From IMG/VR virus record IMGVR_UViG_3300023284_001575, positions 1 to 23,227 of that record: a stretch of DNA of 23,227 nucleotides. One strand, given 5' to 3'. How positions within the stretch are numbered: the first letter of the stretch is position 1; each line of letters starts with the position of its first letter. The translations under genes and the position numbers were made by a program. The DNA comes from a virus. This document shows positions 17,274 to 20,485 of this stretch, piece by piece. The notes beneath the pieces were generated by a model. That model made no database searches. It had not been told where the DNA came from and worked only from the letters and a program-made list of their open reading frames with translations.

Positions 17274-17656
17274 CACGGACAGATTTTGAGCAAGAGCTAA
17301 TACAGACCACCCTATCGGAAAATTCTGAGGAGGGATTGCGGCGTGTGGAACAAGCACGGCATGATCTGGATAGCGAGTTTATACGGCGAGAGAAAAAGAA
17401 GATCAAATTGGAGAATGAGATTGTGCTTTTGGAGAAGTATATTGTAGAGACAGAAACGAAATCGATTGCACAATCGACACGACTGCTCATATTATTGGCA
17501 AAAAGGCGTCGATTACTGCTCAAAAAGCGCATTGATACCTTAGAAATCAATAAATTACTCGATAAATCGGAGAAATTACTGCTCCGAGAAGGTGAAATTT
17601 CGGTAAATAGGTCTATCGTTAACGAAATTGTAGAGATGGCAAAAGATGGGGCGTAA
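17270..17656 (+). CDS. Coiled-coil protein of the baseplate region, 128 aa
   Basis: No family recognised. Apart from short ends the protein is predicted helix with strong heptad character (about residues 20-110; leucine and isoleucine at regular spacing among lysine, arginine and glutamate). The start overlaps the previous stop as ATGA, and its end overlaps the gp25 gene by 11 bases, so it is embedded in the baseplate operon. The DNA is A-richer than that of its neighbours, partly because of lysine and glutamate codons. A rod-like wedge or assembly role is suggested by shape and position only. Confidence 0.65.
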   Translation: MTRTDFEQELIQTTLSENSEEGLRRVEQARHDLDSEFIRREKKKIKLENEIVLLEKYIVETETKSIAQSTRLLILLAKRRRLLLKKRIDTLEINKLLDKSEKLLLREGEISVNRSIVNEIVEMAKDGA

Positions 17657-18074
17657 CGATTTTCTAGGTGTAGGGTGGCAATATCCGTTCCAGTTTACGG
17701 CAAATGGCGGAGTTGCGCGTACCTCTGACCTTCCTGACGGGTCTACCTCAGCGGATCGGCAGCGGGAGCACATCACAAATGCTATCGAACAAGTGGTTCG
17801 GACGAATCTAGGCGAGCGGCTTTTACGACCGGAATTTGGCTCTCGCATTACTGAACTGGTTTTCGATGCTGCCGATCCGTCGCTGCTCGGACAGATGCAA
17901 TTCTTTCTCGCCGCCGGTGTTGGTCGGTGGGAAAAGCGGGCCGAGCTGGTCAATGTCGATGCGTCGATAGATCGTGAACGAGGGATAGTTTTATTCCTTG
18001 TGGATTATAAATTGATAGAAAACAACCAGCCGGGTAATATGGTCCTGCCATTCTTCATACTTGAAGGGGGATAA
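17646..18074 (+). CDS. Baseplate wedge protein gp25 (GPW/gp25 family)
   Basis: The 142-residue protein has the gp25 pattern: VGWQYPFQFTANGGV at the start, IEQVVRTNLGERLLRPEFGS (about 48-67; G-E-R-x-x-R-P-x-F-G is the family signature) followed by ITELVFDAADPSL, a helix, and the final beta sheet RAELVNVDASIDRERGIVLFLVDYKLI. gp25 starts sheath assembly on the baseplate wedge and its C-terminal sheet joins the sheath by handshake contacts in known systems. The ATG lies inside the end of the previous gene. In related phages the gpJ gene follows directly; here an HNH gene intervenes one base after the stop. Confidence 0.93.
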   Translation: MGRNDFLGVGWQYPFQFTANGGVARTSDLPDGSTSADRQREHITNAIEQVVRTNLGERLLRPEFGSRITELVFDAADPSLLGQMQFFLAAGVGRWEKRAELVNVDASIDRERGIVLFLVDYKLIENNQPGNMVLPFFILEGG

Positions 18075-18075
18075 G

Positions 18076-18180
18076 ATGGTCGATAACTTAAAAACACCAG
18101 TATTGGATTACGATAATCGCGATTTCGAGAGTGTGCGTGACGATGCGTTGGAGCGCGTTCCATTCTTCACTCCCGAGTGG
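18076..18180 (+). repeat. Copy 1 of the J gene head (35 codons), now the 5' end of the HNH gene
   Basis: Codons 1-35, ending CCC GAG TGG, encode the start of baseplate J. Compared with copy 2, 67 of 105 bases and 33 of 35 residues agree; only seven codons are identical and the longest identical run is GAGTGG. The differing residues are A24 and P29 here against V in copy 2. It is preceded by a strong Shine-Dalgarno and follows gp25 at the usual spacing, so I infer that this is the native head. Confidence 0.97.
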
Positions 18181-18804
18181 GTGCCGTGCGCTTGCGGCTG
18201 TGGTAAGTTTCGACCTAGATTTGATGGGAGAGGCCGCGAACGCAAATTTATTCGGGGACATTCGTCCCGACTAGCCTCCCAAAAGAAGGTTTGTTGTCGG
18301 CGTTGCCAAACGCCTTTTATTCCAACCACGGCGAGGGGACAAAAATACTGTTCCTTGGATTGCCGTTTTCCGACAAGAGCATGTGAGTGTGGGTGCGGAG
18401 GATTAATTGTAGGCAAGGCCATCGAGACGAGGTTCCTTCCGGGGCATCATTGGATTGGACGAAAGCATACTGACGAGGAAAAGCGTAAAATCGGCCTTCA
18501 CTCTCAAGGCGAAAAAAACCCTAATTGGCGGGGTGGCATCGCCCATAAGCCGTATACGAGGGAATTTGTCCTGTCGTTACGCCAGCAGGTGTATGATGAG
18601 TACGGAGGCAAATGTGGGCTATGCCCTACCACTGGTGACGGCCATGAAATACATATTCACCATATCGACTACAATAAGGAAAACAATGACCCATTAAATT
18701 TGATGGCTTTGTGCCGATCTTGCCACGGACGGACTAACTTTAATCGCGAATACTGGCAAGACTATTTATCGACACTGAGGTTGGAGGTATATCATGGTGG
18801 ATAA
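18076..18804 (+). CDS. HNH homing-type endonuclease (NUMOD3) fused to the displaced first 35 residues of baseplate J
   Basis: Residues 1-35 are not endonuclease sequence: they equal the start of baseplate J (33/35 identical to the J gene that follows). Residues 36-242 are the endonuclease: C38/C40/C42 in CACGCG, a zinc pair C74-x2-C77 with C92-x3-C96, a second CECGCG (103-108), a NUMOD3 DNA-binding motif (HTDEEKRKIG at 131-140 with GEKNPNWRGG to 154), and the HNH core C180-x2-C183, H195-H196-I-D198, N208, C213-x2-C216-H217. NUMOD3 and HNH together are typical of phage homing endonucleases. I start at the ATG two bases after the gp25 stop, with GAAGGGGG upstream, not at the in-frame TTG at 18061. 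The gene uses what must have been J's own ribosome binding site. Its last 11 bases overlap the current J start. Confidence 0.92.
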   Translation: MVDNLKTPVLDYDNRDFESVRDDALERVPFFTPEWVPCACGCGKFRPRFDGRGRERKFIRGHSSRLASQKKVCCRRCQTPFIPTTARGQKYCSLDCRFPTRACECGCGGLIVGKAIETRFLPGHHWIGRKHTDEEKRKIGLHSQGEKNPNWRGGIAHKPYTREFVLSLRQQVYDEYGGKCGLCPTTGDGHEIHIHHIDYNKENNDPLNLMALCRSCHGRTNFNREYWQDYLSTLRLEVYHGG

Positions 18805-18898
18805 TCTGAAAACGCCGGTTCTCGACTACGACAACAGAGATTTTGAATCAGTCAGGGATGACGTCCTAGAAAGGGTCGTATTTTTTACCCCAGAGTGG
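18181..18898 (+). mobile_element. Endonuclease insertion element carrying a recoded replacement of the J gene head (718 bp)
   Basis: The element is inferred to begin just after TGG of codon 35 in copy 1 and to end at the same codon of copy 2. It contains the endonuclease domain, a Shine-Dalgarno (GGAGGT, 18783-18788), a new ATG and 35 replacement codons. Removing these 718 bases joins copy 1 in frame to T-D-L-N-P-N-D-F-G of J. There is no room for a group I or II intron and no inverted repeats of a transposon. The exact ends are uncertain by a few bases because GAGTGG is shared. Confidence 0.8.
18794..18898 (+). repeat. Copy 2 of the J gene head (35 codons), recoded
   Basis: The current start of the J gene. 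Relative to copy 1, 26 codons differ synonymously and two differ in amino acid (A24V, P29V). Changes include serine AGT to TCA and arginine CGC or CGT to AGA or AGG, codon switches that alter two or three bases. The copy is preceded by GGAGGT inside the end of the HNH gene, so J translation is now coupled to it. Confidence 0.97.
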
Positions 18899-20485
18899 AC
18901 GGATTTGAATCCTAACGATTTCGGCGTTGTGCTTACCGAGCTATTCGCGGGAATGGCCGACATCCTTCATTACTATGTCGATTCGCAGGCTAATGAGTGC
19001 TATCTCCCGTCGGTTAAAACACGGAGAGCCGCTCGTTTTATTGCGGAGCCTTTGGGAAGCCAGTTCAAAAGCGCGGTCCCGGCAAAAGTAGACCTGACCT
19101 TCACACTAGCTGCTATCGAAGTGTCAGATGTGACAATCCCTGCCGGAACGCGGGTGAGCACTTCGGGAATTGGTACAATCGTTCAGTTTGAGACTGATGT
19201 GGTCAATGTCATCCCTGCCGGAGAGTTGGTGTCATCGTTGGTTCCCGCTACGGAAGGCGACACGCAATCTGAGGGGTTAGGAACAAGTGACGGATCAGCT
19301 TTTCAGGTTTACGAGTCGGCACTGAATTCGGTCATTGATGATTCGTGGGAAGTAGAGGTGGGTGGAGCAGTTATTTGGACATCAGTTCCCTCTCTCATTA
19401 CTTTTGGGCCGGAGGATGAGGTGTACCAAGTCCGCCGAGATGAGGACGATATTATTACGATCGAATTCGGCGATGGAATTAACGGCAAAATTCCGCAAAC
19501 CGGCGACGATATTGACCTGACTGCTCGGGTGGGCGGAGGCCGTGACGGAAATGTGTCCTCGGATACGATTCAGACGGTCGTGGATGTGCTTCCGGTTACG
19601 GTGACTGTCAATAACGATGTGGCTGCCAGTGGTGGTGAGGAGCGCGAGTCTCTCGAAGATTTCAAAACCCGCGTGCCACTCGAATTCCGGTCGCTCGAAC
19701 GGGCTGTGACATTGGAGGATTGGGAGGGCCTAATCGCTGCGGTGGCGGGCGTGTTTCGAGTACAGGCGAGAGTGGAGTCGGTTGGGTTGGTCGGCCTTTA
19801 TATCGCCCCTGCAGGCGGCGGAGAGCCGAGCACCGGGCTAATCACAACAGTCGAGACACGAGCAAACGAGATTCGGATCGCGACCGATGCTTTTGAGGCC
19901 AACCCGGCTACTTATATTGACATTGATATTACTGGCACGGTCACAGTCTTGCAGAATTTCGTACAATCGGTGGTCGAGGCGGCTGTTCTGGAGGCGATCG
20001 ACGAATTTCTCGATATTGAGAACCGAGTATTCGGTGAGGTCGATAGCCCTGCCGGAGACATCCGCGAGTCGGATGTGTTCGCGCTTATTGAGGAAATTGA
20101 GGGCGTGGATTTCGTAGAATTGGATGTGCTAACTCTGGTACCCGCGCCGGTATTTATCGTTGCAACGGGTGATGCCGAGTTTGGTCCCATATCAGCATCC
20201 CTTACGACCGTGCCCGAGGTATGGACTATTAATTTCACCTCGGCGACAACATTTACGGCTAGAGGTAGCGTGTCGGGTCTTCAGGTGGCGGTAGGTATTG
20301 TTGGTACACCATACACCTCTGACAATGGAGAAGTTGCATTTACGATCTCGAATACAGGTGCTCCGATGGCTGCAAACGATCGAGCAGAGTTTAGGGTAAG
20401 CGAACTGAAAGGCTCTGTGGACATCCTTCCGACGGAGATTGGGCAGAAGGGCCCGATTAATATGTCCTTTCTAGGTGGTGTCTAA
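18794..20485 (+). CDS. Baseplate J-like wedge protein (T4 gp6 counterpart)
   Basis: The 563-residue protein is the main wedge component of the baseplate. Its N-terminus has the family pattern DYDNRDFESVRDDVLERV, then FTPEWTDLNPNDFGVVLTEL and FAGMADILHYYVDSQANECYL (about 31-71). The central baseplate J domain shows V-T-I-P-A-G-T-R-V-S-T (about 114-124), ITIEFGDGINGKIP (about 217-230) and GGEERESLEDFKTRVPLEFRSLERAVTLEDWEGL (280-313, the usual helix-turn before the last sheet). The C-terminal 100 residues form an extra beta domain. Codons 1-35 are the recoded replacement head supplied by the HNH element; from codon 36 on the gene is the native one. The stop overlaps the next gene (TAATG). Confidence 0.94.
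   Translation: MVDNLKTPVLDYDNRDFESVRDDVLERVVFFTPEWTDLNPNDFGVVLTELFAGMADILHYYVDSQANECYLPSVKTRRAARFIAEPLGSQFKSAVPAKVDLTFTLAAIEVSDVTIPAGTRVSTSGIGTIVQFETDVVNVIPAGELVSSLVPATEGDTQSEGLGTSDGSAFQVYESALNSVIDDSWEVEVGGAVIWTSVPSLITFGPEDEVYQVRRDEDDIITIEFGDGINGKIPQTGDDIDLTARVGGGRDGNVSSDTIQTVVDVLPVTVTVNNDVAASGGEERESLEDFKTRVPLEFRSLERAVTLEDWEGLIAAVAGVFRVQARVESVGLVGLYIAPAGGGEPSTGLITTVETRANEIRIATDAFEANPATYIDIDITGTVTVLQNFVQSVVEAAVLEAIDEFLDIENRVFGEVDSPAGDIRESDVFALIEEIEGVDFVELDVLTLVPAPVFIVATGDAEFGPISASLTTVPEVWTINFTSATTFTARGSVSGLQVAVGIVGTPYTSDNGEVAFTISNTGAPMAANDRAEFRVSELKGSVDILPTEIGQKGPINMSFLGGV

Follow-up and report, generated by a model that had tools for sequence, protein, structure and literature searches.

Why would a phage carry the beginning of its baseplate J gene twice, written in largely different codons, and once in fusion with an endonuclease? 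The window, by which we mean the whole 23,227-base stretch of DNA analysed, is a metagenomic virus record that holds a contractile-tail gene cluster encoding sheath (a weak match), tape measure, V, W, J and I proteins. An HNH ORF lies between W and J (Table 1), and its stop codon (18802-18804) overlaps the J start. The first 35 codons of the HNH ORF (copy 1) and of J (copy 2) encode 33 identical residues out of 35, the two differences being A24V and P29V. At the DNA level the copies differ at 38 of 105 bases; 28 codons differ, 26 of them synonymously, and the longest run in common is 6 nt. These counts had been given in a preliminary description of this DNA and were reproduced exactly. The similarity begins at the start codon, with only 9 of 30 bases identical upstream of the ATG, and drops abruptly past codon 35, with 7 identical bases in the next 30. 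The HNH and J ORFs matched each other by blastp with an E value of about 1e-18, and a tblastn search of the record with J gave matches at the places of the two copies only.

Table 1 Features of the W-HNH-J region of the window.
Feature	Position	Strand	Evidence
Baseplate W/gp25 gene, 5' of the insertion	17646-18074	+	PF04965 GPW_gp25, E 2.8e-13
Shine-Dalgarno-like GGGGG, probable resident J initiation site, now that of the HNH ORF	18066-18070	+	Sequence
HNH ORF between W and J	18076-18804	+	PF01844 and NUMOD3
Copy 1, most likely the resident J head (35 codons), fused in frame to HNH	18076-18180	+	33/35 residues as in the J head; phage-typical codon usage
Inferred left insertion boundary, J codon 35/36	18180-18181	+	Similarity ends abruptly; J uninterrupted in relatives
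HNH endonuclease proper, codon 36 to stop	18181-18804	+	PF01844, E 5.5e-05; PF07460, E 3.6e-04; PHROG HNH families
Shine-Dalgarno-like GGAGG within the end of the HNH gene, serving J	18783-18787	+	Sequence
J gene, baseplate J/wedge protein	18794-20485	+	Complete 563-aa ORF
Copy 2, probable recoded replacement J head (35 codons)	18794-18898	+	Codon usage anomaly ending at codon 35; synonymous changes
Resident J body	18899-20485	+	PF04865, E 2e-21; phrog_6 baseplate wedge subunit; codon usage of codons 36-70

Relatives of J were recovered by an alignment-based search of the viral contigs, after a single-sequence query had given none; a degenerate DNA pattern for the J head had no match, and a scan of genome contigs for J found distant relatives only. 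The closest relatives, alignable over their full length, were 51% (loci L037/L038) and 46% (L039/L040) identical to the window's J, and in all four of them W runs directly into J with no insert. The 80 J loci examined contained no HNH ORF of the window type. Copy 2 together with the J body aligns end to end with the J of relatives. The split falls at PEW|T, between W35 and T36 of a PEWTD motif in which W35 is invariant and T36 nearly so among the aligned J relatives, and which is recognisable even in distant homologues. On this sequence evidence, the HNH element is inserted between J codons 35 and 36, as the preliminary description had proposed, and J genes without the insertion, for which it had suggested searching in related phages, are present at those four uninterrupted loci. 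It had also proposed that the endonuclease took over J's start and ribosome-binding site, which agrees with the GGGGG motif in front of copy 1: by the same comparison, the HNH gene now uses the resident head, start and ribosome-binding site of J, and full-length J is restored by copy 2 with a new ribosome-binding site, GGAGG. The right border, at codon 35, is placed by codon usage and by the end of copy 1, since the J relatives are at most 51% identical and the element-free allele of this lineage is unseen. At one more locus (L101:5968-9370), two adjoining ORFs of ~570 aa that are 55% identical to each other lie just 3' of J.

As to which of the two heads originally belonged to J, we scored codon choice against the remaining phage genes in 6,370 windows. 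Copy 1 was ordinary (z -0.23) and copy 2 strongly atypical (z -3.06, in the lowest 0.1%), an anomaly that was gone from codon 36 onwards (z +0.08 for J codons 36-70). Other gene starts of this phage also tend to score low, down to z -2.5, so that the anomaly of copy 2 is in part an effect of its place at a gene start and, taken alone, is suggestive and not decisive. Log-likelihood ratios of HNH-gene versus phage codon usage were +1.6 for copy 2, which fits the HNH gene, and -7.3 for copy 1, which fits the phage. The DNA of L038 shares 66 of 105 bases with copy 1 versus 57 of 105 with copy 2 at equal protein identity, and in the relatives other than L038 the nearness to the two copies is equal or slightly reversed; the closest J relative (51% identity) has 18 of 35 head residues in common with either copy. 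Given the normal codon usage of copy 1, the anomaly of copy 2 that extends to codon 35, and the greater nearness of copy 1 to the L038 DNA, the resident head is most likely copy 1, copy 2 having arrived with the element. The earlier suggestion that the head fused to the endonuclease was J's own and the other one foreign is supported.

The synonymous difference between the copies is larger than would be expected from codons chosen independently. Over the 33 shared residues they differ at 34 bases, where independent draws under phage codon usage are expected to differ at 21.6 ± 3.1; none of 20,000 random draws reached 34 (P < 5e-5), and the maximum possible given copy 1 is 39. Under phage codon usage the corresponding z was 4.0; it fell to 3.9 when copy 2 was given the usage of the HNH gene, to 3.7 under flat usage, and to 3.4 when either copy was drawn from its own usage. 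All seven six-fold codons (three Leu, three Arg and one Ser) switch box (P 0.0009), and when they were removed the excess had a P of 0.012. With codons 1-4 left out on account of their overlap with the HNH stop, codons 5-35 alone gave P 5e-5. Shuffling the codons of copy 2 within each amino acid, so that its own usage was kept, gave weaker values, a P of 0.016 when bases were counted and of 0.043 when codons were. In an empirical control of 5,014 overlapping, and hence non-independent, 35-codon windows from natural J-J pairs that share 30 residues or more, the maximum z was 2.74 and the 99th percentile 0.51, and no window was as extreme as copies 1 and 2; despite their overlap the windows point clearly in one direction. 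Selection for mismatch between the two copies is therefore likely, as far as can be judged from codon statistics. The preliminary description had favoured a plain import of copy 2 from a J gene that had diverged naturally; this was not borne out, because such a donor would be expected to approach synonymous saturation and not to exceed it, which makes an ordinary diverged import insufficient.

The protein encoded by the HNH ORF has a zinc-finger-like N-terminal part followed by a NUMOD3 module (18457-18525) and the HNH domain (18613-18732). The catalytic domain is present, with PF01844 above its cut-off and an HHID...N...CH motif that aligns in relatives; the NUMOD3 recognition module is barely over the cut-off in the window's protein and strong in its HNH relatives. 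A search of annotated phages with the HNH protein returned one distant match only. The first HNH-specific codon is a GTG (18181-18183), which could start the endonuclease separately, without the J head.

The reading that we favour, with a probability of roughly 0.6, is that of an HNH homing-type element carrying a recoded replacement for J codons 1-35; the evidence for the insertion in the J head comes from one contig. The mobile unit would consist of the endonuclease gene, from the position of J codon 36, and the recoded J head with its own ribosome-binding site. The enzyme would cut or nick uninserted J at the conserved PEW-T codons, and repair would copy the element in, with W and the resident head used on its left side and the J body on the other. 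The recoded head would keep J functional while escaping recognition by the enzyme, and would be too unlike copy 1 for recombination to delete the element. After each homing event copy 1 would be the recipient's own head, which would explain how it stays J-like without selection at the protein level. Recoding would be favoured because rebuilding full-length J would otherwise rebuild the cleavage site, and because similar 105-bp direct repeats flanking the gene would permit its recombinational deletion; selection for both non-recognition and non-recombination would carry the difference between the copies past what random synonymous drift can reach.

We collected 157 distinct HNH ORFs of the window's family from viral contigs and compared the gene parts on either side of the nuclease at gene ends, with shuffled or cross-locus nulls; an unfiltered self-comparison of all loci was too noisy and was superseded by these gene-end tests. 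The cross-locus null reached a maximum score of 49 in about 1,500 pairs, and the window scores 178. Five more loci have a gene head or tail duplicated around the endonuclease. In one (L164:3459-4675, score 66), a 33-aa truncated cupin head lies upstream and the HNH ORF runs in frame into a second head and the body, which are fused to it. A mirror-image case (L177:3501-4555, score 59) has an HNH ORF whose C-terminal extension duplicates the end of the helix-turn-helix gene before it. At L282 (2620-3543, score 51), the tail of the preceding gene likewise recurs at the end of the HNH ORF (YKRLTLVRSGNNAD / YKRLTIVKTGNTND), and this ORF overlaps the gene that follows, in the way expected of the native tail. 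A truncated 47-aa head, the HNH ORF and then an intact gene with a related head (MFYDDKIGIGWG) follow one another at L184 (3643-5477, score 50). In the last (L295:1123-2374), an HNH ORF starting with MKIVIDPGH stands directly before an Amidase_3 gene with the head LKIVLDPGHGG; its score of 48 (P 0.0007) is borderline alone, and the DNA there is largely common to both heads. Both head and tail versions thus exist in the survey; the copies at the five extra loci are shorter or less alike, and strong recoding like the window's is found in the window only. Uninserted relatives of the L177 helix-turn-helix gene and of the L282 gene were sought and none was found. Two further candidates were rejected as duplicated ends: L223 (695-3557), where a capsid-like gene broken into several pieces occurs with HNH ORFs and an 18-bp repeat and the interruptions are probably introns, and L201 (230-1140), which was too weak. 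At L201 the HNH ORF lies before dnaK, and an upstream IVGIDLG that has no start codon resembles the dnaK head, possibly by chance.

In an alternative account the insertion is the same, but co-conversion carried copy 2 over from a distant J gene of natural origin and mismatch was not selected for. This origin has a parallel in Glomus atp6, where the native end matches relatives and the native and inserted ends show a similar 63.5% nucleotide and 91% protein identity (PMC3630166), as compared with 64% and 94% here, and it would suit the foreign codon usage of copy 2. Nevertheless, we consider it rather unlikely, given a difference that exceeds saturation under every codon usage tried and exceeds every natural J-J window, and given that a donor sharing 33 of 35 residues would normally be much nearer in DNA, when even the closest J relative shares only 18. 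Excess over saturation also weighs against an old tandem duplication in which copy 1 became a functional domain of the HNH protein (e.g., for baseplate or virion docking) and the copies diverged in place under protein-level selection. Such a role would explain why copy 1 retains its J residues despite the endonuclease fusion; however, divergence in place would neither go beyond saturation nor leave copy 1 codon-ordinary and copy 2 anomalous, and a J-like head occurs in none of about 160 other HNH relatives, which makes this history highly improbable.

Two other possibilities concern the element itself and the record. The HNH gene could now be immobile, the outcome of a single illegitimate recombination of which only the function of J was kept; there is one example only at the J site, but the HNH and zinc motifs appear intact, the site lies in a near-invariant codon motif of the kind typical of homing targets, and related elements sit in other genes with the same logic, so that we regard this as very unlikely. 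That the J genes of two strains were joined around the HNH gene during assembly is conceivable for a metagenomic contig, yet extremely improbable in view of the tight overlap, with the HNH stop inside the J start and a good ribosome-binding site, and of a codon choice that copy 1 and the J body have in common with the rest of the contig; moreover, two strains would not be expected to differ beyond saturation. Some known arrangements were rejected outright. A group I intron or intein does not fit a locus with a stop codon and a second start, a J complete alone, and no match to an Rfam intron or other RNA family. A split gene of the nrdA-mobE type is incompatible with a full 563-aa J ORF that aligns from end to end with relatives, and a diversity-generating retroelement with changes that fall on all bases, not on template adenines only, and that are synonymous in 26 of 28 codons.

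Taking the reading of a homing element with a recoded J head one step further, natural phage 'home-and-rescue' elements would exist in which selection drove the J rescue copy near the limit of the code (34 of 39), sparing it both the enzyme and recombination; we hold the odds on this wider claim to be about even. If true, the cutting of an essential gene combined with a recoded copy of it, an invention of gene drives, would also have evolved in phages, and the cut-and-rescue design could act on gene starts and not only on gene ends. The J element would be convenient in that small DNA pieces suffice to probe how widely an HNH homing enzyme recognises its site across synonymous changes, and would allow self-protection and avoidance of excision to be separated as drivers of the recoding. 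Stray pieces of neighbouring genes at the start or end of some phage endonuclease genes, by which annotation can be misled, would also be explained.

Free-standing phage HNH homing endonucleases include T4 Mob, nrdA-mobE of Aeh1 and the I-HmuI type, and enzymes of this family cut or nick alleles that lack the element, into which repair then copies them (PMC2988022). Like them, the window element has an HNH nuclease domain, DNA-binding motifs and an insertion in an essential gene (PMC2988022). However, in nrdA-mobE and gene 60-mobA the interrupted gene stays as two polypeptides (PMC2988022), whereas the window's J is made whole by the second head. The ShiLan domain, an out-of-frame HNH insertion in a phage methylase, resembles the window in lying within a coding gene and being neither intron nor intein; translation passes through that insertion in the frame of the host gene, and the abstract on it mentions no duplicated recoded end (PMC11855218). 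In the literature searched, the coverage of which was partial and does not prove absence, we found no phage precedent with a replacement gene end, so that a phage HNH element of this kind is apparently undescribed, the C-terminal versions of fungi being already known. The proposed combination of a nuclease against an essential gene with a recoded rescue is also that of the HomeR home-and-rescue drive, which is engineered, based on Cas9 and used in insects (PMC7968924), whereas that of the phage is natural.

Among known systems, the closest are mobile ORFs of fungal mitochondria that carry replacement gene ends, described in Allomyces atp6, in Glomus atp6, atp9, cox2 and nad3, and in Phlebia cox2 (PMC3630166, PMC4019555). 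In these, an endonuclease ORF sits in a gene, with the displaced native end beside it and a replacement end that restores the gene; the endonuclease ORF of the window likewise has a version of the J head on either side, the second of which restores J, and the analogy with Allomyces atp6 drawn in the preliminary description is apt. The fungal ORFs concern the C-terminal end, mostly encode LAGLIDADG or GIY-YIG enzymes and are mitochondrial, whereas the window element concerns the N-terminal end of a phage baseplate gene, encodes an HNH enzyme and, unlike them, brings a new ribosome-binding site and a gene end recoded past saturation. By its sequence organisation, the window element is thus nearest to the fungal mobile ORFs and would work like them, and it is not a member of that type because an N-terminal end and an HNH enzyme take the place of their C-terminal end and LAGLIDADG or GIY-YIG enzymes.
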